Shown here: positions 3,701-56,197 of the stretch, piece after piece
How the letters are laid out: each line of letters opens with the position of its first letter
How positions within the stretch are numbered: position 1 is the first letter of the stretch
Source: Chamaelirium japonicum
Taxonomy: Eukaryota; Streptophyta; Magnoliopsida; Liliales; Melanthiaceae
Reading direction: 5' to 3'
Length of the DNA: 64,000 nucleotides
Assembly: GCA_947650365.1 (NCBI GenBank)
Contig: OX393549.1
Location: forward strand, 12,964,073 to 13,028,072
Position numbers and translations under genes: made by a program
Notes under the pieces: model-generated
Seen by the model: the letters and a program-made list of their open reading frames with translations, nothing else
Database searches by the model: none
What the model was told of the DNA's origin: nothing

Positions 3701-4681
3701 ATTCTTTTACTCTATGTTGACGATATGTTAGTCGTTGGAAAGGATGCGAGTAAAATTGCAAGTTTGAAGGAGCTTGGCAAGTCCTTTGCTATGAAAGACT
3801 TGGGACCGGCAAAGCAAATTCTCGGCATGAGAATATCCCGAAATCGGAAGGAATATAAGATTTGGCTATCTCAAGAGCGGTACATTGAGAAGGTACTTGA
3901 GAGATTCCATATGGATAAGGCAAAGCCGGTTGGTACTCCACTTGGTAGTCACTTCAAGCTTAGCTCCAAGCAAAGTCCTACAAGTGAGAAAGAGAAGAAT
4001 GACATGAAGAAAATTCCTTATGCATCGGCGGTCGGCTCTTTGATATATGCAATGGTTTGCACAAGGCCCGACCTAGCTTATTCGGTCGGAGTTGTGAGTC
4101 GGTTCCTCTCGAATCCGGGTCAAGAACATTGGTTGGCCGTGAAGTGAATCTTACGGTATCTCAGGGGCTTTTCGAAAGCGTACTTGTGCTTTGGCCATGG
4201 AGAACCATTGTTACAAGGCTACACAGACGCCGATATGGCGAGAGATGTTGACACACGAAAATCCACATCGGGGCACTTGATGACATTTGCAGGAGGAGCG
4301 GTCGCTTGGAAATCAAAGTTGCAAAAGTGTGTGGCATTGTCGACTACCGAGGCCGAGTTCATAGCGGCAACGGAAGCTGGCAAAGAGCTATTGTGGATGA
4401 AAAGATTTCTACATGAACTTGGTCACAAACAAGAGCGGTATGTTCTATATTGTGATAGCCAAAGTGCAATACATTTGATTAAGAACTCGAGTTTTCACTC
4501 AAGGACCAAGCACATCGACTTGCGGTATCGTTGGATCCATGATGTGGTGGAACAAAAGAAATTACAAGTTGAGAAGGTACATACCGATGATAATGGATCG
4601 AATGTAATGACGAAGTCACTACCCAAGGAGAAGCACGAAGTTTGCACTCGTGCAGCGGGTTTGGTGATTTCTCTTTGTTAG
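726..4681 (+). pseudogene. Degraded copia gag-pol region of element 1
   Basis: Recognisable parts in order are: UBN2-type gag (about 726-1300); a CCHC zinc knuckle, CYHCGKEGHMKREC (about 1408-1450); aspartic protease with the active-site motif WLVDSGAS (about 1590-1850); GAG-pre-integrase (ELWHKRLGH); integrase core with HTDNGGEY (about 1980-2800); reverse transcriptase with the YVDD box (about 3180-3960); and RNase H with ALSTTEAEFIAATEA (about 4190-4680). The frame is broken in about four or five places, so no functional polyprotein is expected. Known family biology: cytoplasmic virus-like particle formation, reverse transcription and integration. Confidence 0.9.
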
Positions 4682-12162: not shown

Positions 12163-15100
12163 ACTTTCTTTGGTGGACTTATTTGGCATTAATCGTGTAT
12201 TTTTACCTATAGAATCACCTACCTTCCTGCAGAGGGTTCAAGGTGATATCTGTGGTCCTATACACCCTCCTAGTGGTCCATTTAGATATTTTATGGTCCT
12301 AATAGATGCATCTACTAGATGGTCATACATGAGCCTACTCTCTACTAGAAATTTAGCATTTGCTAGATTATTATCCCAGATTATCAAACTTAGAGCTAGT
12401 TTTCCTGATAACCATATCAAATCTATCCGATTGGATAATGCAGCTGAATTCTCTTCTAAAATCTTCAATGACTTCTGCACATCCATCGGAATAGAAGTCG
12501 AACATTCTGTCCCCCATGTCCACACCCAGAATGGCCTTGCTGAAGCTTTTATCAAGCGCTTGCAATTAAATAGCTAGACCATTACTCTTACAATCCAGAC
12601 TTCCAATTTCTGCATGGGGGCATGCTATCTTGCATGCTGCTAATCTTGTTAGACTCAGACCTACTTCATACCATAATTTTTCTCCTGCACAACTTGTGTC
12701 AGGTATTCAGCCTAATATTTCTCATCTTAGAAAGTTTGGATGTGCTGTACATGTCCCTATTCCCCCTCCAAATAGAACTAAGATGGGTCCCCAACGTAGA
12801 TTGGGGATTTATATAGGTTTTGACTCACCTTCAATCATAAGATTCTTAGAACCCTTAACAGGTGATCTATTTACTGCTAGATTTGCAGATTGTCATTTCG
12901 ATGAGACAGTCTTCCCGCCGTTAGGGGGAGATAAAGAAGTTTCTAGGCAACGACCTGTTCCCGAAGAACGACGTGAATTATCGTGGAATACTTCCACTAT
13001 GTCTCATCTAGATCCTAGATCTCCCCAATGCGAGGTAGAAGTAAAAAGAATTTTGCATTTGCAAGATATCGCAAATCAATTACCTGATGCCTTCAATGAT
13101 GCAACTAATGTAACTAAGTCGTTTGTTCCAGCCAAGAATGTACCTGCAAGAATTAATATTCCAACTCCCACTAATGAAACTGCTGCACGTCAGAAACGTG
13201 GAAGACCTATAGGTTCCAAAAATTCAGTTCCCCGGAAGAGGAAGTTGAATGAGAAATCATGCCCTAAAACTCCAGAAGAAGTTAAGGTTCCAGAAGAACC
13301 TGGTCATAATGCTCCAGAAGAGATTATGGACCATATTTTTCCAGAAGAAAATATTTCCCAACGGCCAAATTTCCCTCAAACTCCTGAAGAGATCCCTGCA
13401 GTGATTATGGATAAGGTACCGGTAACGAATAATGAGATCTCAATATTCCATATGAGGGGTGAAATTTGGGACCGAAAGGAAATAGTCATCGATGACATAT
13501 TTGCATACAAAGTAGCTACTGAAATAACAAAGGGCGATGATGAAGATAATGAACCACGTAGTATCTATGAATGTCGACATAGAACTAATTGGCCAAAATA
13601 GAGAGAAGCTATTCAAGCTGAACTTGAATCTCTCAAGAAACATGGAGTATTTGGACCTATAGTACAAACACCAAATAACGTAAACCCTGTAGGTTTCAAA
13701 TGGGTGTTTGTAAGAAAAAAAAATGAAAAAAATGAAATCACTAGATATAAGGCAAGGCTTGTAGCCCAGGGATTCCTGCAGAAACCCGGGATTGATTATG
13801 AAGAGACATATTCCCCTGTTATGGATATAGTTACATTTAGATATCTCATTAGTCTCACAGTTTCTGAAAAACTAGAGATGAGACTAATGGATGTCGTAAC
13901 GGCATACCTATACGGGAACCTAGACACAGATATTTATATGAAAATCCCAGAAGGATTCAAGTTGCCCGAAACAACATCAAAAGTCCTAGAAGGATTCAAG
14001 TTGCCTGAAGCAACATCAAAGAGTGCGCACTCGATAAAACTAAGACGAACATTGTACGGCCTGAAGCAATCCGGAAGGATGTGGTACAATCGCTTTAGTA
14101 AATATTTGTCTAGGGAAGGTTATAAGAATGATCCCATATGCCCATGCGTTTTCATAAAGAAATCAGAAAATGGATTTACAATAATTACAGTTTATGTGGA
14201 TGACATAAACTTGATTGGGACTCCTGAAGAGCTCAAGAAAACTTCTGATTATCTAAAAAGGGAGTTTGAAATGAAAGAACTTGGTGATACTAAGTTTTGC
14301 CTCGGCCTGCAGATCGAGCGTAACTCTAGTGGGATTTTAGTACATCAATCATTATATACTGAAAAATTGTTAAAGAAATTTAATATGGATAAATGTCACC
14401 CACTAAGCACTCCCATGGTAGTTAGACCTCTTGATATTCATAAAGATCCATTTAGACCTAAAGAGGAACATGAAACTATTCTTGGTTCTGAAAAACCGTA
14501 TTTAAGTGCTATTGGTGCTTTATTGTATTTAGCTCGATGTACTAGACCAGATATATGTTTTTCTGTTAATCTATTGGCTAGATACAGTTCAGAACCAACT
14601 CTTAGGCATTAGAATGGAATAAAACAAATATTTAGATATTTGCGAGGAACCACTGATATGGGATTGTTTTATTCTTGTGGTATTCCTCACTTGATTGGTT
14701 ATGCAGATTCAGGTTTTCTCTCTGACCCCCATAAGGGTCGATCCCAAACAGGGTATGTATTTTTAAATAACAATGCAGCTATTTCTTGGAGATCGACCAA
14801 ACAAACACTTGTGGCCATATCATCGAACCATGCTGAAATATTAGCCCTGCATGAAGCAAGTAGAGAATGCGTATGGTTGAGGTCACTTGTGCAGCACATC
14901 AGAAGCAGTTGCCAGTTGGCATCAATTACCAAAGAGCCGACAGTTATCCACGAAGATAATGCCGCATGTGTTGCTCAAATTCAAGCTGGCTTCATCAAGG
15001 AAGATCGAACAAAGCACATCTCACCAAAGTTTTTCTACACCCACGAACTTCAGAAGAAAAGGGAGATTGAAGTCAAGCAAGTACGGTCAAGCGACAATCT

Positions 15101-19423: not shown

Positions 19424-20785
19424 TCACACCCAATCCTCGTCGCTCAGCTGATCTTCCTCCTCCTCTTTGGGTGGTCTCACCACCAAAACCACCGTCCCCA
19501 GCGCCTCCTTCACTCCCTTCTCCACCAGCTTCCTCCCTCTCTCCACCACCAAACCCCTGTTCTCCCCGCTGCCGCCGCTCACCAGATAGTAACCGTCCTC
19601 TGCCACCTCCCGCCGCCCCCGGTCTGCCACCACCAGCACCGCCGCCTCCTCCTCCCACCTGTTCACCCTCCACGGCAGTGCCCTCGGATCCCTGAACTCC
19701 ACCGCCACCCTCTCCACCACCCCCGCCACCGCCCCCCACCCCGGAAGCACCACCCACCTCCCCCACCCCCTCTCCACCGTCACCACCCCCAGCTCCCCCT
19801 CCTCTCTGCACCACCGAGGCGCCGCCCCCAGCTCCGCCTCCCCCTCCCCCGCCCGGCACACTGGCACCAGTGCTACGGTCGTCGAATCCGCCACCTCCCC
19901 GTACTTCAGCCTTACCACCGGCACCGTCACACTAGCCGCCCCGTCGTCCGCTTCCCCGCTCGCTCCCCCATTCCCGGACACCCTCTCCATCTCCTCCGCA
20001 ATCCTCCCCCTTGCCCCCTCCGTCTCCGCCGCCTCCATCGCCTGCTCCAGCGCTGCCAACCGGTCGGGGACGGAGATCGCCTCCCGGCTAAGCCGGAAGT
20101 GGGTGTAGGCGAGGCAGTCCCCGGGGGACGCCGCGGAGAAGCGGTCCCACCCGTCGTCTCCCCGCCGGCGGGGGAAGTCCTTCATGGCGCGGGCGAGCTC
20201 CTGGGCGGCCTTGGGGTCGAAGCGGAGCTCCACGACCCGGCGGGCGGCGACGGCCCGCTGGGCGGCGTTGAGGAGGCGGAGCTCGTAGAGGTGGTCGGCG
20301 CCGCCTTCGGAATCGAAGTGGGCGAGGAGGTCCGGGTCGAAGGAGGAGGCGGAGAGGAGAGAGTCGCGGACCTGGGCTGCGACGAGGAGGCGGTTCTGGT
20401 CGACGCCGGAGATGCCGGTGGCCTCCTCGATAGAGGGAGGGGTGAACCCGTCCGGCCCGAGGGAGGAGATGAGGGGGGCGTACTCGTGCCAGAGGCCGAG
20501 GCGATCGCGGAGGATCTCGAGGCGCTCGGCGGGGCCCAGGTCCAGGTACTTGGCCGGGAGAGGGGAGGGCGGCGGACGGAACGGCTGGTAGACTTTTCCG
20601 GGTGGCGATGGAGGCTGCGAGGAGGGGATCCTCACGGCTGCGAAGATGGGTCGGTAGTGGGACGGACGGCGGGGATCTAGGGAAAGGAGGAGGAGACGGC
20701 GGTGCTGTGGGTGGTGGTGGTGGTGGTGGGTGTAGAAGTGTGCCGCAATGGGTTTTGGTGCGGCTAGAGAGAGCATGGCTGCCAT
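19424..20785 (-). CDS. RAF1: Rubisco accumulation factor 1, chloroplastic
   Basis: A complete single-exon gene of 453 codons. The protein is a chloroplast chaperone that binds newly folded Rubisco large subunits after the chaperonin and holds them as dimers until the L8 core forms. Residues 1 to about 55 are a transit peptide rich in Arg, Ser and Pro with a run of six His. The mature part begins near YQPFRPPPSPLPAKYLDLGP, a hallmark of the family. The N-terminal alpha-helical domain includes LWHEYAPLISSLGPDGFTPP and EEATGISGVDQNRLLVAAQV. A charged linker follows, then the C-terminal beta domain (PVVRLKYGEVADSTTVALVP; DGYYLVSGGSG) and an acidic tail. Length matches known plant RAF1 (about 430-455). 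The start is the first Met of MAAMLSLAAP; the Met three codons later is an alternative. GC content, mostly at third positions, is far above the surroundings, and there is no sign of damage. The antisense frame is a shadow. Confidence 0.95.
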   Translation of the reverse strand: MAAMLSLAAPKPIAAHFYTHHHHHHPQHRRLLLLSLDPRRPSHYRPIFAAVRIPSSQPPSPPGKVYQPFRPPPSPLPAKYLDLGPAERLEILRDRLGLWHEYAPLISSLGPDGFTPPSIEEATGISGVDQNRLLVAAQVRDSLLSASSFDPDLLAHFDSEGGADHLYELRLLNAAQRAVAARRVVELRFDPKAAQELARAMKDFPRRRGDDGWDRFSAASPGDCLAYTHFRLSREAISVPDRLAALEQAMEAAETEGARGRIAEEMERVSGNGGASGEADDGAASVTVPVVRLKYGEVADSTTVALVPVCRAGEGEAELGAAPRWCREEGELGVVTVERGWGRWVVLPGWGAVAGVVERVAVEFRDPRALPWRVNRWEEEAAVLVVADRGRREVAEDGYYLVSGGSGENRGLVVERGRKLVEKGVKEALGTVVLVVRPPKEEEEDQLSDEDWV

Positions 20786-20999
20786 GGCAGAAAGATAGAG
20801 AGAGAAGAGAGAGAGACAGACCTTATCTGTTTTGGTTCATTGGCGCTGGGGTTTTTGTCATGGATTTCGGACCTTCCAATGCTTGTTGGGTTAGGATTGG
20901 GTGTCGCACAACAGTGATTGTTGGGTTTTGATTGTCGGTTTTTTAGGCTGGAGCCTGCACACAAGTGGGTTAGGCCCCTTGTTGACACTTGCCATTGGA
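20786..20999 (-). promoter_or_regulatory. RAF1 upstream region with I-box-like motif and CT-rich leader
   Basis: On the minus strand the 40 bp before the start codon are CT/TC-rich, as in plant Y-patch leaders. Just upstream, GATAAGG (rc of 20821-20827) matches the I-box core found in promoters of light-regulated photosynthesis genes, which would suit a Rubisco chaperone. No convincing TATA box was seen. Confidence 0.45.
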
Positions 21000-36100: not shown

Positions 36101-39100
36101 CCTCCTCCTTTGTCCGCCTCTCCATTGCGGGTGTGCCAATCCCTTGATGGAACCAAGGTTCGAAATCTCCATTTCAGTGGAAATTTCGACCTTCTGGATA
36201 TGGAAATATTTCGTGAAAATATTTCGATAATGTGGAAATATTGCAATTTTGTAGAAATGGTGAATATATTAATTTTTTGATGAAATTTTTTAGTGAAACT
36301 CTGGATAGTCATAAACCAAGTATAGATACACACTTTGGAACACTCAAATAATATTTGTACCCTATCTAGGGGTGTAGAGCTTCACATAACATGTATTCAA
36401 TATATTGAGTCTGTGTGTCTTGTGTAATCTTATTTGGTTCGGTTTTGATATATATTTTTCAAATGTTTTTTAATCTTTTTTTGGATAAAAATATTTTTGA
36501 AATAAAGATTAGTTGATTGTTAAAATAATGTTTCAAACGATTTTGAAAACAAACTTAAAACAAGAAAGTTATGAAAATTTGAAATTGTGCAAAAAATTAT
36601 GCTGAAATGTGAAACACTGTTTTTTTACTAAGTCTGAAAAAAAGAGTTTTTATGTAGATAAGATTTTATACATTCAAAATTTTCTAAGACGGACCATGGT
36701 TTTCTAGATGCACTCGTACTTCTACATCTTGTGAAAATTTTTGAGCTAAAAATGAGTTGATTTAATAACTTTTCTCACCATGTAGATTTTATAAAAATCC
36801 ATAAAAACTGTTTTCTCCTACTAAAACTGAAAGTTTACCATTTGATTTATTTGTTTTTTGATTTTTTTGATATTTTTATTGAAATCAAATGGGGGTTATT
36901 TGCTTATTTACATATAATAACTTAAAGTAAATGGAGAAAATTAAAATTATGTAAATAAGCTGTTGAGAACCAGGCCCCCCAGTCCCCTTTTATAACTAGT
37001 TATTCACATAATTTCGGATAAATTTCGGAAAATTTTCTAAATTTTCGCAAAATTTCAACAAAATCTTGGGATATTTCATGGAGATGGAAATATTTCGTGG
37101 AAATATCGCAATATTTCGCGAAACCGCTCGATATTTTGACATTTCCAGTTCTGCTCGAGATTGTAGGTGATATTTCGTACCGGGTTTTCATTTTTCCGAT
37201 ATATTTCACGAAATATATCGATTTTTTGTTCCTTGGCTGGAACTCATCCGCTATTCAGTTGGCCTTGGCCTCCTTCGGGGAGGTAGTAGAAGTGGAGAAC
37301 GAGTTTGAGGCGACGAGTGATCTTCTGGAGATGATAGTTACCTTTCGGACAATCAACCCCTCGGCGATCCCCTCTGTCTTATCGGTTCGCTTTGGGAACT
37401 ACTTCTTCAACCTCTCCATCTGGGTTTCAGTGTCATCTTCCCCAGGATGCTCTTCAGCTTCAGTTCATCAGCTTGGCAGTTCCTCAGACCAGCAGCAAGC
37501 AGCGCCTTTGATCCCCCCCGGTCCTTCCGAACCCAGTTCGAGATGAGGGCTTGACCTCGGTCCCTCCGAATCCAGCCGGTGTGGAAGGTAACGGTTTTGG
37601 TATTGATCCTCTCCCCCCGGTTTCTCAGGAATTGGCTACCAGCACCTGCCCGATTGGGCCTGGTTTTGATTTTAATATCCAAGAGATTAATGGGGACCCC
37701 GTTAATCTCTCCCGTGATTCCGGGGATTCACTAGCTGTGATCCTCTCCAATCATGGGCCGTTTTTACTGACGAGGCATCGGGTTTACTTAGCCAGGTTAC
37801 CGCAGATCAAGAGCCAGCTCAAGGAGATCCCGGGGTAGCAACCGAGGAGAGGCTGGACGCTGATGCCCCTACCATCCCTCCCCAGCTCCAGACCTATGTA
37901 CGTAGGAACATTAGGCCGCAACAACAAATCATGCACAACCTCAGAAGCTTTTTTGGCCTCGAGAACGGAAGAGGACTTCGCCCTTTTCTTGAACCTGCTG
38001 GACAAAGACTCCATCCTGAAGATCGCCTTGGCGCGTGGGTTCGCTTTTGGATGTGATGCTGCAGCAGCGAAGGAGTTTTTGGTTTCTTCTCAAGCGTTGG
38101 AGAAGACTAGAGTTTTGGCCAAAGGCCTGTAATTGTCTTAATGAAACTTTTATCGTGGAATATTCGGGGACTGGGGATGGAGGATAAAAGACGGGCTATC
38201 GCTTTTTTTTGTGGTTTGCATGGTTTGGATGTGGTGTGTCTACAGGAGACCAAGACGAGCAACCCTAGTACAAAATTTCTGAAAAGCTTGACAGGGAGCA
38301 GTGGATTTATCTGGGAGGCACTAGATGCTACGGGGGCTTCAGGTGGTATCCTCATCGGGTGGAAAGAGGATAGCTTCGACTTCGTTAGTAAGCATGTCGG
38401 TACATTCTCCCTATCAGTGACCCTAACGTGTATAGCTGATAGAATTAATTTGGTAGTAACCTTAGTGTACGGCCCGAACGATATGAGCATTCGTCAAGAT
38501 CTTTGGCAAGAACTTACAGACGTTAGAGGCCTCAGGCGAGGGATCCTGTGCGGGGACTTTAATGTTACCAGATATAGTCATGAGAGGAAAGGTGGTATAG
38601 GCCATATGGGTGCAATGGGAGACTTCTCGAACTTCATTCGACTGCTAGACTTGAATGACCTCCCTCTTTTGGGCCGGCTCTTCACGTGGACTAATAAGCG
38701 GGAAACCCCTTCCATGGCCAGGCTAGACAGGTTCCTTACCTCCAATGAATGGGACGCTTTGTTCCCGAACTCTATTCAGAGAAGCTTGCAATCTCTGGTC
38801 TCTGACCACGTACCACTTTTGTTGGATACTTGCCTCATGTGGATTAGACCGCACTGTCGCTTCCGTTTTGAGCGGATGTGGCAAGAAGATCCTTCCTTTG
38901 ATTCTCTTGTTCGGAAATGGTGGACGCAGTCTCCTACCGACTTCAACTCAGCCAGAAATTTGGTTCGCAAACTCAGAGGTCTCCGTCATAAGATTAGAGG
39001 TTGGGAGCGATCCAGCTTTGGTTCTGTCATACGCCGCAAACAACAAATTCTTAGTGTGATTGAGGAGTTAGAAGTGAAGGCAGAATCCTCCCCACTAGCG

Positions 39101-42100
39101 GTCGACGAGAGGGCTTCTCTCTCCTCCTCTAGAGAAGATCTCCTTTCTATCCTGAGAACAGAAGAGATTATGTGGAAACAGTGATCCAGAGATAAATGGA
39201 TAAGAATGGGCGATCTAAACACGTCTTACTTCCACAAGGTTGCTAATGAGAGAAGGAAGAGGAACACCGTTCAGCTTCTTCAGGTAGGGGGTCATCAGCT
39301 TGAAGGGACCGAGGAGGTGCTTTCTGGAGTCTCTAGCCATTTCAAGAACTACTTTCAGGACCTTCCAATTTCCGTAGCCTCTCTCTCTTGGGGAGACTTA
39401 CTGATCAGAAGGATCCCCCCAGCAGCAGATCTGGACAGGGACTTCTCCCCAGAAGAGATCAGGAAAGCAGTTTTGACATGAATGGGGACGGAGCTCCAGG
39501 CCTTGATGGGTTCTTGATGCATTTCTTTCAATCGTATTGGGACTACATATCCAGCGATGTCACCAGATTCATCTTAGACTTCTTCTCGGGTTCCTCATCT
39601 TTGGAAAGTCTGAACTACTTTCTTCTAGTTCTCATCCCGAAGAAGGCAGGAGCAGATTCTGTGACGGATTTCCGCCCCATAAGCCTCTCCAACTGCATTT
39701 ACAAGATTACTACGAAACTTCTAGCGAACCGTCTATCCACTATCATGGACGAGTTAATTAGTAGATCCCAATCGGCTTTCATTAAAGGCAGACTGATTCT
39801 GGATAGTGTTGCCTCAGTCCAAGAGATCCTTTATCATCTGAAGGAGCATAAGTCAGAAGGGTTGGTTCTTAAACTTGACTTTGAGAAGGCTTTCGATAGG
39901 CTACACTGGGATTTTGTTCTCTCCACCTTGCGTGCAAAATGTTTCTCACCACGATGGATTCATTAGATTTCTTGCTGCTTGACTTCTTCCAAGCTCTCCT
40001 GCTCGATTAAGGGTGCTTCGGGAGGTCACTTCCATATGCTAAAAGGCCTTAAGCAAGGATGCCCGCTTTCCCCTTTTCTTTTCATCTTGGCTATTGATGC
40101 TTTTGATGCGATCCTGCAAAAAGCAAACTCTCAGAACCTGATCCGAGGTATCCGAGGTAACTCCTGGTGCATTTCCAACCTGCATTTTGCTGACGATACT
40201 ATCCTTTTCTGTGAAGCGGAATTAGAGCAGGTGGCTGTCCTGAAGATCATTCTGTATGCGCTTGAATTTTGTTCGGGTCTCCGAATCAACTTCTCCAAGA
40301 GCTCGATGTACTACGTAGGGCCTTCTCAGGAGAAGGGCCTTTTAGCCTCATCCATGTTGAACTGTAACCTGGAAACCTTTCCGATGGAGTACCTGGGTAT
40401 CCTCATCAACAATAAAATACTGGGAAGAAATGATTGACTTAAAATGGTGGAGAAAGTGGAAGGCCGATTATCCAACTGGAAAGAGAAGTTCCTCTCCCTA
40501 GGAGGCCACTTGACCCTAGTTAATTCTGTGCTTTCCTCCATCCCGTCTTACTACTTAGCTTTCTACTTCATTCCGGCCTGGGTTATTAAGAGAATAGACA
40601 GAATTCGTAGCGCTTTCCTTTGGAAAAGGGCCGATGGTTCAGCCGGCTCCTATCATCTAACTAATTGGGGCATCATGTGCAAGTCTAGGGACCAAGGAGG
40701 CCTTGGAGTCACCAATCTTAAAGATTTTAACCGAGCTCTGCTAGGTAAGTGGTGGTGGAGGTTGCAAAACGACCAGGGTGATCACTGGTCGTCTATTATC
40801 AGAGAAAGATATTTCAAACGCTTCTCTCCTCTTCAGGCTAGGAGCAGGAAATCAGGTACACTTTCACCTTTTTGGAAAGACATTTGCAAAGTTGGGGCCC
40901 CCTTCCGTATCAGTACCAGGTTGATTCCAGGAAATGGCAAGAACATCAAATTCTGGACAGATCACTGGGTCGATGACAATAGTCTGGCTTCACTGTTCTT
41001 TGATCTCTATAGTCTGGCTTGGGATACCCAAGCATCAGTTCGCTCTCAGACTGCAGAGTCACCAGATGGTCGTATCTGGTCGGTTAAATTCAGAAGGATG
41101 ATTCCGGATTCTCTACAGAGTCAACTTACCGATCTCTACCAGATTTTAGAAGCCTTCACTCTCGGGGATGTCAGAGACTCTTCAAGATGGAAGTGGGAGA
41201 ATTCTGGGGTTTTCTCCGTCAAATCTTTCTATAGAATTTTTAATAACGGAGGACTTATTTGCCCTATAGTGAGTCACCTTTGGAAGTCGCCAGCGCCCTT
41301 AAAGACGAGGATCTTCATGTGGCTAGCCATCCGGGAAATTTTTTTAACTAGGGTGAACCTGAGACGGAGGAATAACCCCAATGTGCAAGACTTGTCCTGC
41401 CCTCTTTGCCACTCTCATAGAGAAGATGCTAATCACCTTTTCCTCAGATGTCTATTCTCCCGTAGCCTTTGGTCTATGTTGAAGCACAGATTCAGAATCA
41501 GAGGACACCCTGGCTCCATTCGCTCCCTTTGGACACTGGCGGTCTCGTAGAGTGAAGAAGGCGCTTTGTCCAGCTTGGGACCTTCTGACAATTGGTTTAT
41601 GCTGGAGCATTTGGCGAGAGCACAACGCTAGAGTATTCTCGAGCAAGGAATTATCTATCGGGGTTATCTGGTGCAACTTTGTAGTTATGGTTATTAGCTG
41701 GTCTTCAGGTTTCTCTGTTAAACTCTCGGGGCAGATCAACCATTTCCTTTGTAACCTTTAATTAGTAGTTCTAATAAAGCTTGGGATATGCTTAACCCCA
41801 TCCTCTCCTTCTCGGTGAGGAATTGCTCAAAAAAAAAAAAGGAATCCATACATTAGATGTGCTGAATAAAAGGCTTGGTTCCTATTTCTTTGTAAAAGAG
41901 CCACCATCCTATATATCTCATGATTCCTACCTCCGTTGACATTTAAACTAATTGGTCCTATTAAATTTCCTACGCAAATATCAAGAAAAAAGGGTCTCTG
42001 ACGGCACTATAAATCAAATCCCTATTTTAAGAGATTGTAAATCAGTAGATTGTACCTATAAATCACTTAAGAAATTAATAAAGAAAAAAAGGACTTCAGA

Positions 42101-51100: not shown

Positions 51101-54100
51101 GATAATCTAATATTTTTGAAACATTTCACAAATCACAACCACGTATCCAAAAAAAAAAACAATTAAAATTACTCATCTAAATCACCTAACCATCTACATC
51201 ATCGTCACTCTTGTATGAATAATCCTTATATGTCTCTTTCGACTTTTTCTTCTTCAAACCTTGAGAACATGGACACAATAGTTTTTTTCCAATTAATGAT
51301 GCATGGTGTTAGCCATCGATAAAGCAACATTGATGAAGACCTGATCAGCACCTTCAGTTCGTATCCGTTTGGGACTTGTTAGACGTTATTTCAGTTTTTG
51401 GCCGTTTTTCCCTGTTTTTGGCCTTATGTCAGCATTTAGTTTTGTTTCTGTTCTTGCCCAGTTCGTGGGGGATGTCCATGATCTCATCCGAGGGCTTTTC
51501 GGATTGAATCCGGGTCTTCTCGGGTGAGTTTCAGCATGATATTAATAAAATTATGGGTGTGTGTGTTTGCGGGGCACCGACGGACGAGATTAGATCTCGA
51601 AACCGACGGTTAGATGGCGAAATAACTTAAATTTGATGATGTGGCATCAATTGGGCTTCAATTAGGGCTATGTGGGCTTCAATTAGGGCTTTTCCGTCCC
51701 TTGCCCGTGCGGAAACCGAGCCAATCCGCCCCCTCTTCCGTCCCCTAACTTCTCTCTCTTTTCCCCTTATTTCTCTCTCTTTTCCTTTCCTTTTTTGGCC
51801 CATTGCATCCCCACCATTCCCCCTTGATTTCCCTTTGATCTTGTCCACCCAAAAAGAAACCCTAGTTCTACAAAAAGGGGAAGATTGAAGGAGATTTCAG
51901 ATTTTGATAGTTGCTGAAATTCGTGCCTCTTCGTGAGTGCTTCCGGGTGAGACTCGAGTCCCCGATCCTCGCCGATTCCACGACTTCGCCTCGTGAAGGC
52001 TTTGGGCTTCGTTTTCCGAAGGTTCCGGCTTCTCCCGACGTCCGGCCTTGCTCCGTGTGCAGGATCGTCGGCGCATCCTTGCAATCGACCCACGGCGGGA
52101 AACCCCAGGCAGTATCTTTCCTTTTCCTTTATTTTCCCATCGCATCCGCTTCGTTTTCATTAGTTTCCATCGCCTCCGCTCCGCATCGCAGCCGTCATCA
52201 TCCTTTTCATCGCTAGTTGAAGCCATAACTTTGCCTATTTATTAGATTCGCCATATATCGTCTGTCGGTAACCCTAGCAAGCATTCGTAACCTATTTTAG
52301 TGAAAATCTGTTGCATGCCTATTGTCCAATTTACATATCTATTGCTGCGATTGACCCTATTATGTGCTGAAATCAGTTTTTTTGTGTTAGTATTGCGCTC
52401 TTTAATTGTTTTAAGTCTTAACCCTGCTTTATGTTGATTGCATAAACTTTAGAACTGCATAAGATAACTTCTGGTTGCTGTCCTTTTGATCTATACGTCG
52501 CTATATTGATAAATAAAACCTAGTCATTGACCAAAGAAAACCCTAAAAGGGTTCAGGATTGTAGTGTGCCTTATTGGTGCCTGCATCAAGTTGGTATCAG
52601 AGCTCGAAAGAACCTGTTCGGGTTTCTTTTGAGTGCTGAATTTCAGCAAACCCTAATCTTTTCTTTGCTGATTTTGCATAGGTCATCGTCTTGCGTGCTT
52701 GATTTGCATTTAGTGTTAGGTTTACGTCTAGCGTTAGGATTGCATCGTGTATCTGACGCCATGTCCTGTCGTCGCGTCCGATCCCATCCTTATTCGCTTG
52801 ACCCACTAGATACCCACACCTATAAACAATTTGTCAGGCTATATAAATCTCTTGAGCCATGTCCTACCCTTTTCCCGAGATCTTCGATGGAACGTAGATA
52901 CTCCTCTTCGATTCGAGATCAAGCCCATGACCTGGATCTATCTTCTAAACCTTTTGTTCAATGGGTTTTACGGAGTCCTTCAGTGCCAACCTTGAAAATC
53001 AGATATATCGAAACCCAGCTCTTACTTGATGATATTGAGGATGAGTTGGCATGGAGGGAGAAGCAGAACCAGAGGCTTGCCCGATACAGCAGGCCACCAC
53101 CTCCAGCAGAGCCTCCACCTCCTGTGGAGTACCCGGTTCCACCAGTGGCCCCACTTGAGAAGCATCCGCCTCCTGTGGAGCTTCCTCGGCCAATGCCTAC
53201 GGAGGAGCCACCTCTTCCGTCAGCGACTACAGAGGAGTTCCTTCCGCCTTCTCCAGTGCCTACAGCGGTGCCACCTCCTCCTTCAGTGGCTTCAGAGGAG
53301 CTCTTTCCACCTTCAGCAGTGCCTACAGAGGAGCCACTTCCTCCGGTAGTGACTACGGAGAGGCTTCTCCTACCTTTCACAGAGCTTACAGATGAGGCAC
53401 CTCCTTCGGCAGTTCTTCCTACAGCAGAGACACCCGTGGAGCCTCCGACTTCCGCGGAGCTTCCATCACAGCTACAGTCAGAGCCAGTTGGGGAGCTTCA
53501 GACAGCTAAGCCACTTGCGCGCTTTGACTTTGTCGGGACTGACCGACCACCTACAGCTCGTGCGCTTCTGTTTTTGTACTTCAGTACCTTCTGGCCCTCG
53601 CTCGACGCCAGCACTCCCTTCGCGAGAGGCCCAGAGGTTGTTGACTGCCCGAGACATCACTTGTTGGGAATTCATCATCAGATCCAGACACAGCGACGTT
53701 CCCACGGTGGTGGTCTCCCTCCTGCTACCGGCGATGTCTTCCGGCGTAAACTCGAGGACGAGTTTTTCGCAGCGGAAGCGATTGATGAAGACCTGATCAG
53801 CACCTTCAGTTCGTATCCGTTTGGGACTTGTTAGACGTTATTTCAGTTTTTGGCCGTTTTTCCCTGTTTTTGGCCTTATGTCAGCATTTAGTTTTGTTTC
53901 TGTTCTTGCCCAGTTCGTGGGGGATGTCCATGATCTCATCCGAGGGCTTTTCGGATTGAATCCGGGTCTTCTCGGGTGAGTTTCAGCATGATATTAATAA
54001 AATTATGGGTGTGTGTGTTTGCGGGGCACCGACGGACGAGATTAGATCTCGAAACCGACGGTTAGATGGCGAAATAACTTAAATTTGATGATGTGGCATC

Positions 54101-56197
54101 AATTGGGCTTCAATTAGGGCTATGTGGGCTTCAATTAGGGCTTTTCCGTCCCTTGCCCGTGCGGAAACCGAGCCAATCCGCCCCCTCTTCCGTCCCCTAA
54201 CTTCTCTCTCTTTTCCCCTTATTTCTCTCTCTTTTCCTTTCCTTTTTTGGCCCATTGCATCCCCACCATTCCCCCTTGATTTCCCTTTGATCTTGTCCAC
54301 CCAAAAAGAAACCCTAGTTCTACAAAAAGGGGAAGATTGAAGGAGATTTCAGATTTTGATAGTTGCTGAAATTCGTGCCTCTTCGTGAGTGCTTCCGGGT
54401 GAGACTCGAGTCCCCGATCCTCGCCGATTCCACGACTTCGCCTCGTGAAGGCTTTGGGCTTCGTTTTCCGAAGGTTCCGGCTTCTCCCGACGTCCGGCCT
54501 TGCTCCGTGTGCAGGATCGTCGGCGCATCCTTGCAATCGACCCACGGCGGGAAACCCCAGGCAGTATCTTTCCTTTTCCTTTATTTTCCCATCGCATCCG
54601 CTTCGTTTTCATTAGTTTCCATCGCCTCCGCTCCGCATCGCAGCCGTCATCATCCTTTTCATCGCTAGTTGAAGCCATAACTTTGCCTATTTATTAGATT
54701 CGCCATATATCGTCTGTCGGTAACCCTAGCAAGCATTCGTAACCTATTTTAGTGAAAATCTGTTGCATGCCTATTGTCCAATTTACATATCTATTGCTGC
54801 GATTGACCCTATTATGTGCTGAAATCAGTTTTTTTGTGTTAGTATTGCGCTCTTTAATTGTTTTAAGTCTTAACCCTGCTTTATGTTGATTGCATAAACT
54901 TTAGAACTGCATAAGATAACTTCTGGTTGCTGTCCTTTTGATCTATACGTCGCTATATTGATAAATAAAACCTAGTCATTGACCAAAGAAAACCCTAAAA
55001 GGGTTCAGGATTGTAGTGTGCCTTATTGGTGCCTGCATCAAACATGGACCTATAAAACCAAATGAGATATAAGAAAACTCAATTTGAACCCGACTTTTTT
55101 TTTTTTTAAAAAAAAAACAATTACAAAACTAGGGGCCTAGGCGGTGACCTAGGCGGCTGGCCGCCTAGACTCCACCGCCCGCCTAGTCATGGCCTAGGCG
55201 GTCGGGGGTCCAAAACGTCTAGGCAATGACCTAGGCCTAGGAGACCCCTTAGCTACACTGATCTTTTCGTTATATTCCTATCCTCTTGATCCTGTGCGGT
55301 CGCACAATGCTCTTGGGACTAGGATTTCACAAAACGCATAATCACATTTGAAAACATTACATATATCCCCTTTCTCACTGGGGCTTACTCTGCCTTTTTG
55401 TATAAGGCCCCAACCAGCTTGTTTTTTCCTTCCTTCTTTTCTTCATATTCCTATCGTCTTGATCATGTGCAGTCACACAATGCTATTGGGACTAGGATTG
55501 CACAAAACGTATAAGCACATTTGAAAACATTACATATATCCCCTTTCTCACTGGGGCTTACTCTACCTCTTTTGTATAAGGGACCCAACCAGCTAGAAGG
55601 GTCAAATAGAGGAGTGGGCTAGGTGAGCTGTCCACTCCCATTTCATTTCATTTCATTTCATTTCTAAGTTAATATAACTATCTGATGAACGATTTATCAA
55701 TCAATTTGTTTTAGGGTTTTTCCAACCCTTCTGATAACAAAGGATGGATAATTAATATAATTATATGACTATTTAATCATTCTTCACTGCTAATCAGATT
55801 AATCTAATACTCGTAGTAATCATCCAATCTTTTGCTATTGTTTTTCTTGGTTTGTTTTCTGAATATACTTGCTAGAAAAAATCTTCATAAAAAACCATAA
55901 ATGCAAGTATATCAGAATAAATTAAAGTTGACAATTTTGAACTCTAAAGATCATAAATTTTATTTTAGCTTGGTGATAGAGTTGTTGCACTTATCATTCT
56001 GCAGTTGTATTTGAACTTGTTTTTCTTTCCATCTTTTCTTTATGTTGCTATTTTCTTGATCCTATGTTTAACTTGGCAAATGAAGGTTATTCTAAACAAA
56101 GTTCAATTTCATTAATTTTATTTCTTTATCAGAAATCAAAGAAATGCTGTCAATTGTGCTGCGTGATTTAAGGTTTAGCTCAGCAGTGGTGCACCAG
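26114..56197 (+). CDS. ARP9: Actin-related protein 9, N-terminal half (nine exons; gene continues past the window)
   Basis: Exons at 26114-26116, 26208-26280, 26790-26908, 26992-27051, 27123-27188, 34545-34647, 47782-47990, 48291-48411 and 56133-56197. All introns are GT-AG, and together the exons give 819 nt = 273 codons in one unbroken frame. The product starts MDYLKTVIPSQLIAERGSNI and continues VVINPG, RIGFAHQQVPFNVPHCIARH, MLNSQATPAQQ, KIPFLDEEAANN, FTWTDV, LVVPETYDNLEIKEMLSIVL. This is the wording of plant ARP9, a plant-specific actin-fold protein of about 590 residues with no settled function; it is not the orthologue of yeast Arp9. Residues 20-35 form the first nucleotide phosphate loop, and Cys27 stands where I recall Ser. 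The C-terminal half, with the rest of the actin fold, must lie right of 64000. Introns 5, 6 and 8 are 7.4, 13.1 and 7.7 kb through transposon insertions, yet the exons look undamaged. Confidence 0.93.
26453..26708. mobile_element. MITE in ARP9 intron 2
   Basis: Inverted repeats of about 50 bp: left GGGTAAATTACACTTTGACC..., right end as reverse complement TGAGTAAATTATACTTTG..., both continuing GAAGTTTAGCTCAAAAACAC. It is 256 bp, non-coding, of the same type as 7337-7543. The ends resemble Mutator-like MITEs. T-rich flanks prevent a firm reading of the target duplication. Confidence 0.82.
27189..27879 (+). other. ARP9 intron 5, first part
   Basis: The donor is AAG|GTAAGC. AT-rich intron sequence with a short TCTCTC run near 27465; no other feature was seen. 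Confidence 0.5.
27880..28700 (+). repeat. Tandem-duplicated intron segment, copy A
   Basis: Matches 28715-30090 in the same orientation when the hAT-like insertion there is skipped. Shared words include GAAGGAAGAGAAA, CCGCCATTGTCC/TCGCCATTGTCC, GAATGTTGTGCCCT, TTGGTTCGAATGTCG and AAAGAGGGGAAA. Parts read as Cys-rich peptide (FECRGCNE), but neither copy holds a long frame. The origin is unknown. Confidence 0.6.
28715..30090 (+). repeat. Tandem-duplicated intron segment, copy B (interrupted)
   Basis: Second copy of the unit at 27880-28700, about 75-80 percent similar by eye. It is split by the hAT-like element at 28768-29429. Near its end the words GGGGATTGGGTATA...GTGTTTTTGGGATGAAA occur twice, a further local duplication. 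Confidence 0.58.
28768..29429. mobile_element. hAT-like non-autonomous element in ARP9 intron 5
   Basis: Flanked by GCTGAAGG on both sides (28760-28767 and 29430-29437), an exact 8-bp target duplication. Ends are CTATGCAGTCAAAG at the left and, reverse-complemented, CTATGCTATCAAAATC at the right. The 662-bp body has GGGGACTAGTC/TAGTCGG words in both subterminal regions and an AT-rich middle, with no coding capacity. Confidence 0.82.
30091..30860 (+). other. ARP9 intron 5, middle part
   Basis: AT-rich non-coding sequence with a small GGTATCGGTC...GGTACCGATCG block near 30515-30550. No gene was recognised. Confidence 0.4.
30861..31380. repeat. Satellite-like tandem array in ARP9 intron 5
   Basis: Diverged units of about 170 bp, each made of two related halves, are repeated about three times. 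The core CCACTCCCCGAGGTGTATGA recurs near 30877, 30997, 31070, 31170, 31240 and 31330, followed by TTGAACAA...AGTCAACTACTTAAACAA. The arms CTTTAAGTCATTAAGTGTTT alternate with it. No coding content. Confidence 0.72.
31381..33748 (+). other. ARP9 intron 5, late part with weak coding-like remnant
   Basis: 31921-31955 is a GGTGCA tandem repeat. On the minus strand 31906-32142 can be read as a 78-residue peptide starting MITMGAGSSESGDRETGRGK, possibly the tail of a decayed transposon protein, though this is only a guess. The remainder is AT-rich and shows nothing else. Confidence 0.3.
33749..34053 (-). other. Exon-like open stretch on the minus strand
   Basis: On the minus strand an open frame includes FIRVPKEDKSSKGSTACYMV and EGAPALVFKE, then a good splice donor GTATGTC. 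I do not recognise the protein. It could be a captured or stranded gene fragment in the ARP9 intron, or chance. Confidence 0.25.
34545..34647 (+). CDS. ARP9: ARP9 exon 6
   Basis: Acceptor TTGCAG, then 103 nt encoding MGRGDNYTPHQSKSDTTFTW and TDVMEKNPRSSSAL, then donor G|GTACTT. The frame joins exon 5 in phase 0 and leaves phase 1. FTWTDV is characteristic of plant ARP9. It stands alone between a 7.4-kb and a 13.1-kb intron. Confidence 0.9.
35000..38132 (+). pseudogene. LINE ORF1 (nucleic-acid-binding protein), interrupted
   Basis: Begins at an ATG 21 bp into the element with an Arg/Gly-rich N-terminus (MRGYGERLRGRPGGR). A proline-rich stretch follows, then two CCHC zinc knuckles at about 35620-35740 (CFRCGEKGHLLSTC and CWICRGIGHSSSLC). 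After that comes LEFVAWTPSHRARCSCSSSF, a conserved block of plant LINE ORF1. A 1.08-kb hAT-like element splits it at 36154-37235, and coding resumes with WNSSAIQLALASFGEVVEVE. The N-terminal, knuckle and C-terminal parts lie in different frames, so there are at least two frameshifts. ORF1 proteins package LINE RNA. Confidence 0.85.
36154..37235. mobile_element. hAT-like element inserted in LINE ORF1
   Basis: Ends CAAGGTTCGAAAT and, reverse-complemented, CAAGGAACAAAAAATCG. The flanking 8-mers are GATGGAAC (36146-36153) and GCTGGAAC (37236-37243), an 8-bp target duplication with one mismatch. It is 1,082 bp and AT-rich, with many GGAAATATTTCG/CGAAATATTTC words near both ends and no transposase. 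It interrupts a coding block of the LINE cleanly, so it came after the LINE. Confidence 0.82.
38141..41761 (+). pseudogene. LINE ORF2 (endonuclease-reverse transcriptase), interrupted
   Basis: Starts MKLLSWNIRGLGMEDKRRAI. The AP-type endonuclease (about 38141-38850) keeps NIRGLG, LQETK, GDFN and SDHVP. The reverse transcriptase (about 39600-40350) has FRPISLSNCIYKI, LDFEKAFDRLHWDF and the catalytic FADDTILF (about 40185-40208). A zf-RVT domain follows (about 41200-41470). In-frame stops occur at 39182-39184, 39964-39966 and 40435-40437, and frame changes near 39478 and 41540, so the enzyme is dead. In life it nicks target DNA and copies LINE RNA in place. Confidence 0.93.
41855..42500 (+). 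other. ARP9 intron 6 after the LINE
   Basis: Ordinary AT-rich non-coding intron sequence; no element or gene was recognised. Confidence 0.5.
42501..43777. repeat. Repeat mixture in ARP9 intron 6 (dHAT start, GA tract, LTR-like block)
   Basis: 42502 onward (TAGTGTAGTCAAGGTGGCTAGG) resembles the left end of the hAT-like element at 50775, but no right end was found. 42645-42740 is an AAAG/GAAA purine tract. 42960-43735 looks like an LTR, with a TTATAAATAA box (about 42990), a repeated module (AAAGCAACAC/CCACATCCTAGT...ATAAAG) at about 43332-43400 and 43535-43610, and a CCAAAGCCAAG tandem repeat at about 43427-43500. The long minus-strand open frame over this region is an artefact of the biased composition. 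Confidence 0.4.
43889..45374. mobile_element. hAT-like element inside the 5S part of a Cassandra LTR
   Basis: Exact 8-bp target duplication GACCCAAG (43881-43888 and 45375-45382). Short inverted ends CATGG...CCATG, and subterminal regions full of GGTTTCGATCGAAACC-type words. It is 1,486 bp and includes a probable poly-A-tailed insertion at about 44220-44767. No transposase was seen. Confidence 0.85.
44220..44767 (+). mobile_element. Probable poly-A-tailed retroposed fragment
   Basis: Within the hAT-like element, a block of different composition ends in GCCATTTGTAAAA and a 16-A run (44752-44767), as a truncated LINE 3' end would. Its left border and target duplication were not resolved. Confidence 0.4.
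45505..47781 (+). other. ARP9 intron 6, last part
   Basis: Non-coding. 46840-47110 has repeated words such as GATTCAAGCCTATTTGGAC and CGGTTCGGGTTC, probably a decayed repeat. The intron ends in the pyrimidine-rich GATTTGTTCAG acceptor. No second gene was recognised. Confidence 0.45.
47782..47990 (+). CDS. ARP9: ARP9 exon 7
   Basis: 209 nt between a TTCAG acceptor and a CAACAG|GTGCAC donor; enters in phase 1 and leaves in phase 0. It encodes EVLVNKGAEEESFSRSKVAD, DEYTFKDFICGEDALKISST and EPYCLCRPIRRGHFNVSQHY. In the actin fold this is subdomain 1-2 sequence; the CRPIRRGHFNVSQ block is strongly ARP9-like. Confidence 0.92.
48291..48411 (+). CDS. ARP9: ARP9 exon 8
   Basis: 121 nt after a GTTACAG acceptor, ending at G|GTACCT, phase 0 to 1. 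It encodes VFRDLYAIWDWILIDKLHIL and PADRNLYSAILVVPETYDNL. The IWDWI and LVVPE-type words match the conserved actin/ARP strand leading to the second half of the nucleotide site. Intron 7 before it is only 300 bp. Confidence 0.92.
48412..50214 (+). other. ARP9 intron 8, first part
   Basis: Mostly AT-rich and non-coding. 49180-49640 has a promoter-like look (TATATATA at about 49406, then a CT-rich leader). 49886-50089 opens a short frame, MKRSGSSWRRIPSLNVIDND, ending in a Lys/Glu-rich stretch. This could be the first exon of a decayed hAT transposase, but that is a guess. Confidence 0.3.
50215..50774 (+). repeat. Intron 8 tandem repeat, copy 1
   Basis: About 550 bp whose words recur in 55261-56060: ACATTACATAAATCCCCTTT, TTTGTATAAGGGG, AGCTAGAAGGTCAAATAGAGG, CATTCTTCACT, TTTTGCAGTTG, and TTCCTTCCATCTTTTC at its right edge. 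The hAT-like element at 50775-55260 sits right after it. Confidence 0.65.
51331..52588 (+). repeat. 5' LTR of the young LTR element
   Basis: 1,258 bp, TG...CA ends, offset from the 3' LTR by 2,452 bp throughout. It holds a doubled word GGGCTTCAATTAGGGCT near 51652-51690 and CT-rich leader-like sequence at 51740-51800. Confidence 0.95.
52592..52603 (+). other. Primer-binding site of the young LTR element
   Basis: TGGTATCAGAGC begins three bases after the 5' LTR end, matching initiator tRNA-Met. Confidence 0.9.
52761..53834 (+). CDS. Proline-rich protein of the young LTR element, possible gag-like
   Basis: I choose the Met of MSCRRVRSHPYSLDPLDTHT as start, because upstream codons belong to the primer site and leader. 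This gives 357 residues, the last 17 codons running into the 3' LTR. Residues about 1-105 are ordinary and partly helical (HTYKQFVRLYKSLEPCPTLF; YIETQLLLDDIEDELAWREK). Residues about 110-240 are an imperfect PPPSxVPTEEPLPP-type repeat; the C-terminal third is Arg- and Pro-containing without known motifs. No zinc knuckle, protease or polymerase motif was seen. By position it would be a gag-like protein, but I do not recognise the family. Confidence 0.6.
   Translation: MSCRRVRSHPYSLDPLDTHTYKQFVRLYKSLEPCPTLFPRSSMERRYSSSIRDQAHDLDLSSKPFVQWVLRSPSVPTLKIRYIETQLLLDDIEDELAWREKQNQRLARYSRPPPPAEPPPPVEYPVPPVAPLEKHPPPVELPRPMPTEEPPLPSATTEEFLPPSPVPTAVPPPPSVASEELFPPSAVPTEEPLPPVVTTERLLLPFTELTDEAPPSAVLPTAETPVEPPTSAELPSQLQSEPVGELQTAKPLARFDFVGTDRPPTARALLFLYFSTFWPSLDASTPFARGPEVVDCPRHHLLGIHHQIQTQRRSHGGGLPPATGDVFRRKLEDEFFAAEAIDEDLISTFSSYPFGTC
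53783..55040 (+). repeat. 3' LTR of the young LTR element
   Basis: Same length and, by eye, same sequence as 51331-52588. It is preceded by CGCAGCGGAAGCGAT instead of a classic long polypurine tract. Confidence 0.95.
55261..56060 (+). repeat. Intron 8 tandem repeat, copies 2 (partial) and 3
   Basis: The block TTCCTATCCTCTTGATCCTG...TTTTGTATAAGG at about 55273-55405 is repeated at about 55447-55580 (TTCCTATCGTCTTGATCATG...). Copy 3 then continues like 50300-50774 to TTTCTTTCCATCTTTTC. A CATTT pentamer run lies near 55640-55662. Confidence 0.65.
56133..56197 (+). CDS. ARP9: ARP9 exon 9
   Basis: 65 nt after a TTTATCAG acceptor, ending CACCAG|GTTTGT; phase 1 to 0. It encodes EIKEMLSIVLRDLRFSSAVV and HQ, directly continuing PETYDNL of exon 8. 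No later exon (expected to begin EGLAA- or similar) was found in the remaining 7.8 kb. Confidence 0.9.

Follow-up and report, generated by a model that had tools for sequence, protein, structure and literature searches.

The stretch of Chamaelirium japonicum DNA analysed here, 64,000 nucleotides long and referred to below as the window, contains an LTR retrotransposon that encodes no pol enzymes and has a single open reading frame of unfamiliar type. The locus raises the question of how such an element is moved, and whether the protein that it encodes has any part in this. The initial annotation, made from the sequence alone, described a very young copy of a non-autonomous family and proposed that its protein may act in packaging. 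Below, we describe the element, its family and its partner, and we discuss how the LTRs of the two may have been exchanged.

Structure of the element

The features of the element are collected in Table 1. It possesses two LTRs with TG..CA ends and a target-site duplication, which identifies it as an LTR retrotransposon. A base-by-base comparison of the two LTRs gave 0 differences over 1,258 bp, in agreement with the earlier description of two LTRs of equal length and identical sequence, and the flanking AACAT duplication was likewise found to be perfect. The primer site, previously assigned to tRNA-Met, is 12 nt long, and starts 3 nt past the 5' LTR. It is complementary to the 3' end of L093, a gene of this genome that ARAGORN types as tRNA-Met; we take the pairing tRNA to be the initiator tRNA-Met. 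The element does not belong to either of two named classes of pol-less elements. LARDs are large elements, over 4 kb, without coding capacity, whereas the window element measures 3.7 kb and retains an open frame; and this frame has no detectable Gag domain of the kind that defines a TR-GAG.

Several other features of the window were observed. Two copies of a 173-bp tandem unit, 91% alike, lie just downstream of the insertion (55262-55594). A long GC-rich frame on the minus strand (19424-20836) had no real match in NCBIfam, and presumably resembles the Rubisco accumulation factor RAF1. Reading the translations of positions 1859-4147, 12570-14612 and 38111-41550 by eye revealed copia-like pol and LINE-like frames.

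Table 1. Features of the element, in window coordinates. LTR positions are counted from the first base of the 5' LTR.
Feature	Position	Strand	Remarks
Target-site duplication AACAT, 5' copy	51326-51330		5 bp
Target-site duplication AACAT, 3' copy	55041-55045		
5' LTR, 1,258 bp, TGATGAAG...CTGCATCA	51331-52588	+	Equal to the 3' LTR
3' LTR	53783-55040	+	
LTR tip, family-specific block	51331-51488	+	Fst-like value 0.56 versus pol-bearing family
U3-side block	51489-51890	+	Matches pol-bearing copy L055 (left parent)
TATA-like motif TACAAAAAGGGG	51869-51880	+	Begins at LTR 539; putative promoter motif
Crossover interval (LTR 560-612)	51890-51942	+	Left L055-like, right L060/L064-like
Candidate R region (LTR 561-800)	51891-52130	+	Least variable long LTR stretch
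U5-side block	52131-52588	+	Pool indistinguishable between pol-less and pol-bearing copies
Primer-binding site TGGTATCAGAGC	52592-52603	+	Complementary to 3' end of tRNA-Met L093
Leader common with pol-bearing partner L052	52589-52725	+	First 60 nt identical, about 137 nt at 91%
357-codon open frame	52761-53834	+	Final codons within the 3' LTR
N-terminal part, residues 1-110	52761-53090	+	pN/pS 0.37
Proline-rich middle	53091-53510	+	pN/pS 1.06; 63-bp repeat at 53190-53412
C-terminal module, residues 251-311	53511-53693	+	Homologous to C-terminus of second pol-less family
CGCAGCGGAAGCG	53768-53780	+	At expected polypurine tract position; equals tRNA-Met L093 positions 11-23

A recent burst of a multi-copy family

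Searches of the genome showed that the element is one of many. The LTR search gave 43 matches at 95-100% identity (best 40 of 2,363 candidates scored), and all 40 of the internal-region matches scored, the best of 1,057 candidates, had an identity of 99-100%. With up to one mismatch allowed, a 35-mer from the frame was found at 371 places; the LTR-primer junction has 481 exact occurrences, and a 25-nt sequence spanning the start of the 3' LTR has 313 occurrences. The reversed control gave 0 in each case. A protein search with the window frame returned at least 114 matches, and among the 114 listed, which are the top scores, 108 have no stop and 6 have stops. Thirty loci, one of them the window copy, were selected for the identity of their internal DNA, and in 27 of these the frame has at least 357 codons. 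A perfect 5-bp duplication is present in 22 of 31 loci, the other nine of which include tandem and broken copies. The earlier suggestion is thus supported as regards a young multi-copy pol-less family, with hundreds of copies and with the frame open in the best ones.

Zero LTR substitutions were found in 8 of 28 measured loci (including the window; two of the eight form a tandem pair), which makes the window copy a typical member of a recent burst and not an exception. At 1.3e-8 substitutions per site per year, a grass rate that may not be that of the host, one LTR difference corresponds to about 30,600 years, and the earlier figure of about 30,000 years was therefore arithmetically right; at this same rate, with the same reservation, zero differences give a 95% upper bound of about 92,000 years.

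Some loci have unusual arrangements. The copies L013/L014 (C133), L032/L033 (C291) and those at C12:28822921-28831490 are arranged in tandem with a spacing of about one LTR plus one internal region, and apparently share an LTR. At L017 (C3:78280866-78285057), the match to the 3' LTR covers 133 bp and then gives way to another LTR of this family in inverted orientation.

A pol-bearing partner in the same genome

Six LTR-primer junctions were examined, with 9.9 kb each. One of them, L052, has an LTR pair that is 99.93% identical over 1,388 bp, the target-site duplication CAAAA, and a single frame of 1,669 codons, in which Pfam searches in four pieces detected gag, CCHC, protease (below cut-off), RT, RNase H, integrase and a chromodomain. 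The order of RT, RNase H and integrase, together with the chromodomain, makes L052 a Ty3/gypsy chromovirus. A pol-bearing element with related LTRs, which the initial annotation had envisaged as a partner, is therefore present in the same genome. Besides the leader (Table 1), the two elements have in common the LTR ends TGATG(A/C)AG...CTGCATCA, and the primer site is similar in the pol-less and pol-bearing families; conserved LTR ends and similar primer sites are features by which such pairs have been recognised (PMC9744471). The tract before the 3' LTR of L052 is a classical GGGGGAG, and differs from that of the window element.

LTR pairs are near-identical in L052 and in most pol-less loci, the partner pairs compared being those of L052, which is young, and of its older relative L049 (94.5%). 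A search with the RT gave at least 121 matches; by our own count, at least 30 of these are free of stops, with an open frame of 1,668 codons or more. The 47 primer junctions on C1 comprise 17 of the window type, 5 of the type of a second pol-less family (L048, see below), 9 with the partner RT downstream and 16 unclassified ones, at least two of which carry the 35-mer of the window family's frame. The stretch at LTR 561-800 is conserved across the pol-less and pol-bearing families and is a candidate for a shared promoter region. Another locus, L047 (G000:C1:4031922-4041821), has the same LTR-primer junction and a leader that is 79% identical over about 115 nt, but the long frames that come next (872 and 600 codons) are different ones and look copia-like by eye.

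The LTRs are mosaics

Among 27 loci (L017, L018 and L030, with incomplete LTR pairs, were dropped, and L050 was kept apart), LTR divergence has a mean of 10.1% (0-19.4), as against 0.51% (0-1.0) for the internal region, and the rank correlation between the two is 0.13 (p 0.012). The internal divergence is low partly because most loci had been selected for an internal region similar to that of the window copy, a selection that does not affect LTR divergence in this way. L050 shows the opposite pattern, its LTR being within 3% of that of the window and its internal region 7.5% away, with length changes. The variation in the LTRs is arranged in blocks: four-gamete conflicts were found in 9,371 of 22,366 LTR site pairs versus 1 of 91 internal pairs (25 loci).

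These blocks also occur on pol-bearing copies, with which the pol-less LTRs have exact runs of up to 587 bp in common. Compared with a set of 20 pol-bearing LTRs (L052 and 19 others), the window LTR matches L055 on the left at 78 of 79 informative sites and L060 on the right at 105 of 106 (183 of 185 together), and a single breakpoint at LTR 560-612 separates the two parts. Because this breakpoint was chosen as the best one, the Fisher p of 2e-50 is an optimistic value. The same kind of fit was made for pol-less LTRs beyond position 158, leaving out L023 and L024 and requiring a gain of at least 15 matches. Two pol-bearing parents were clearly better than one in 20 of 26 LTRs, and the breakpoint midpoints of all 20 lie at LTR 563-779, just after the TATA-like motif, where 4.7 would be expected if they were uniform. 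The 20 breakpoints are not independent events: they come from nine parent pairs, and L055 is one of the parents in 17 cases. In addition, the breakpoint intervals are made wider by the stretch of low diversity (572-987 in L016). The other six (L013, L014, L019, L022, L027 and L029) fit one pol-bearing parent nearly as well past position 158.

The differentiation between pol-less (24) and pol-bearing (20) LTRs is 0.56 at the tip and 0.37 on the U3 side (reached in 0 of 500 permutations each), 0.045 in the candidate R region (15/500) and 0.032 on the U5 side (60/500). The nearest neighbour of a pol-less LTR is never pol-bearing at the tip (0/24), but is so for 5 of 24 in U3, 6 of 24 in the candidate R and 8 of 24 in U5; by our own estimate, about 11 would be expected on the U5 side in a fully mixed pool.

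Proposed mechanism and alternative explanations

We consider it likely that the window copy belongs to a young pol-less LTR family that is moved by the enzymes of the Ty3/gypsy chromovirus represented by L052, and that has exchanged LTR segments with this partner through co-packaging and minus-strand strong-stop transfer, an exchange that the initial annotation had not described. We infer the position of R, the co-packaging and the strand transfer from sequence comparisons. The RNA of the pol-less element and that of its partner would enter one particle, where synthesis of the minus strand would be started by tRNA-Met on one or the other RNA. The short DNA made first, R-U5, would often jump to the R of the other RNA. 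R-U5 would then come from the RNA on which synthesis began, and U3, the priming site and the internal region from the receiving RNA. The product would possess the LTR tip, the plus-strand priming site, the internal region and, in most cases, the U3 of the pol-less element, combined with the U5 of the partner; one U3 and one U5 would serve for both of its LTRs, which would therefore be alike. Minus-strand strong-stop transfer between two co-packaged RNAs would produce the gradient of differentiation that is observed from tip to U5.

Not all copies follow this simple scheme. In L027, L029 and some others, the U3 is of pol-bearing type, whereas the tip and the internal region are pol-less. These copies require a further exchange close to the tip, for which the simple model has no place. 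Moreover, the U3 type of the window is present in just one of the 20 pol-bearing LTRs, L055, which may have received this U3 type rather than donated it.

The mosaics might instead have been generated by gene conversion among integrated chromosomal copies. Conversion or a similar event does occur in this family: L024 has a perfect duplication (GATGG) and yet LTRs that are 7.7% apart, and those of L023 are 15.8% apart, which suggests that some exchange took place once these two elements had inserted; there are also tandem copies with a spacing of one LTR plus one internal region. However, gene conversion hits one LTR at a time, whereas 26 of 28 loci have two LTRs that are less than 1% apart, which means that the mosaic is present in both LTRs, as reverse transcription predicts. 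The clustering of the breakpoints in one part of the LTR, for 20 of 20 supported cases and nine parent pairs, also argues against conversion, and we regard it as an unlikely source of the mosaics. It could also be supposed that the main mobiliser is a different, unseen autonomous family and that the L052 family shares only ancestry with the window element. This would agree with the priming site before the 3' LTR, which is unlike that of L052, and would leave room for the unclassified junctions on C1 (16 of 47, at least two carrying the frame). The long exact runs in common and the indistinguishable U5 pools of pol-less and pol-bearing copies both speak against such a family, which makes it very unlikely in our view.

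The encoded protein and a second pol-less family

The 357-residue frame matched no Pfam family up to E 10 and had no PDB or NCBIfam match. Likewise, 16 family members gave no Pfam match, and a profile of members gave no PDB match; the frame was thus rightly described as lacking a recognised domain. Profile comparison with the gag piece of the partner revealed no homology (hhalign E 0.22), and thus gave no support to a Gag origin of the frame. A captured host gene as its source was unsupported by the Pfam, PDB and NCBIfam searches. The structure prediction of the protein was poor (mean pLDDT 45), and the length of its C-terminal tail varies with the LTR that it enters.

Constraint on the protein was estimated from 22 sequences, namely 20 from the protein-ranked list, the window and L050. 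The pN/pS values were 0.37 (95% 0.20-0.66) for residues 1-110, 1.06 (0.70-1.79) for the proline-rich middle, 0.48 (0.23-1.14) for the C-terminal part and 0.66 (0.48-0.92) overall; the choice of 20 frames by protein score favours low pN, yet all three regions come from the same sequences. Thus, the N-terminal third of the protein looks conserved and the proline-rich middle does not. L050, which was selected by its LTR, gave 0.40 in the N-terminal part when compared with the window; the other copies selected in this way have changed too little for an estimate, and one of them, L008, has a broken frame. A search that started from the L050 frame listed 148 rows, 124 of them without a stop (our own count; some copies are split into two rows).

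It is possible, though we find it the more doubtful reading, that the frame is a passenger that is open only through the youth of the copies and that the protein does nothing. A frame without known domain, with a low-confidence fold, an unconstrained middle and a tail whose length shifts with the LTR would fit such a passenger, as would the numbers of variable sites at the three codon positions of residues 1-110 (14, 9 and 22), which are borderline (p 0.057). The low pN/pS of these same residues counts against it, although the sequences from the protein-score list favour low pN, and so do the value for L050 and the large fraction of rows without stop. We therefore conclude that the 357-residue protein is probably a protein of the element whose N-terminal part still matters. 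The role in packaging that had been suggested for it was not borne out: Gag homology was undetectable, constraint was seen in the N-terminal part only, and the fold prediction was poor.

A relative of the protein is encoded by a second pol-less family, represented by L048 (G000:C1:6529888-6539787; element at about 916-3689 in the reverse complement). It has LTRs of about 490 bp (98%), an internal length of 1.7-1.8 kb, and the same primer junction and pre-LTR motif as the window family. Its 286-codon frame has at least 136 matches in the genome, about 98 of those listed being without stops, and the part outside its C-terminus has a weak resemblance to Gag, with E values (0.1 and 0.23) that do not pass the cut-offs. 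The window protein and L048 have the C-terminal module FDFxGxDR ... RHHLLG[IL]HHQ in common. BLASTP of the window frame against L048 was not significant; local alignment scored 72 versus a shuffled maximum of 50 (500 shuffles), and 92 versus 42 for DNA, and profile comparison gave E 1e-6. Based on the shared module and the weakly Gag-like rest of L048, our guess is that the window protein may descend from a Gag-bearing pol-less element and has since lost a recognisable Gag.

The priming site before the 3' LTR

The 13 nt CGCAGCGGAAGCG before the 3' LTR are identical, in the same sense, to positions 11-23 of tRNA-Met L093, which we take to be its D arm. This match was equalled by 1 of 20,000 shuffles of the 30-nt stretch. 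The 14-mer TTCGCAGCGGAAGC occurs 677 times in the genome, versus once for the reversed control. Its 62 places on C1 consist of 27 exact window-family junctions, 5 in L048-type elements, 2 more at the window-family distance from a primer junction, and 28 with neither. The motif is kept in L048 despite differing surroundings. Eight places in the genome contain the tRNA stretch, among them L092, which is not called as a tRNA by ARAGORN. The position of the polypurine tract holds only CGCAGCGGAAGCGAT, also kept in L048, which is not a classical tract, and the plain reading of the pre-LTR motif is a weak purine tract. Alternatively, tRNA-Met or its 5' fragment could pair with the minus strand at this motif, which lies just where the plus strand has to be started, thereby priming both strands and replacing the polypurine tract, an idea that we consider most improbable.

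Comparison with known systems and implications

Paired autonomous and pol-less families, discordant LTR and internal trees, and recombination of co-packaged RNAs are already known; the comparisons below refer to excerpts of the papers cited. In wheat, an exchange by template switching has been proposed for the autonomous Ty3/gypsy element RLG_Cereba and its shorter partner RLG_Quinta (PMC11302176). As in this pair, the shorter element described here has its own open frame and has LTR ends and a primer site in common with its partner. Quinta, according to the excerpt, encodes a clear Gag plus a domain of unknown function (PMC11302176), whereas Gag is undetected in the window element; and the exchange is resolved here within the LTR. 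Quinta is also centromere-specific (PMC11302176), whereas the junctions of the window family are spread from 4 to 131 Mb along C1, so that placement in centromeres only was rejected for this family.

Transfer of LTRs between groups has also been proposed for RLC_Angela and for Wilma/Sabrina/WHAM of wheat, where, as here, non-autonomous elements are co-active with autonomous ones and LTR and internal trees disagree; in that account, the Angela derivatives have decayed frames, and the breakpoints, in contrast to those reported here, are not placed (PMC9744471). For Onsen of Arabidopsis, pairwise recombination of co-packaged RNAs and recombinant LTRs in extrachromosomal DNA have been described, within one family and seen directly after heat stress, whereas our case concerns a pol-bearing and a pol-less family and is reconstructed from integrated copies (PMC5668417). 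TR-GAGs resemble the window element in having LTRs, a primer site, one frame and no pol, but, as characterised in the excerpt, retain the Gag domain that is undetected here (PMC5818461). Finally, Ty3 has a bipartite primer site, in which initiator tRNA-Met contacts both RNA ends, its D arm contacting U3; this 3' contact is a pairing with the tRNA, whereas the window element has a same-sense copy of tRNA positions 11-23 (PMC5371799). Among the titles returned by a literature search on intermolecular strong-stop strand transfer in non-autonomous LTR retrotransposons, none dealt with an exchange of U5 between elements with and without pol. The present case adds to these systems a pol-less family in which no Gag is detectable, a contrast between the LTR tip, which is bound to its family, and the U5, which is common to both, and the clustering of breakpoints in one part of the LTR.

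Parasites of retrotransposons have to remain compatible with partners that change, and it is an open question how they do so. The copies analysed here suggest that such a parasite retains the LTR tip, the priming site and the coding region of its own family, while its U5 comes from any co-packaged partner RNA. If this is true, trees based on LTRs would misgroup elements, and identical LTR pairs would date the last copying event but be silent on the origin of the LTR.
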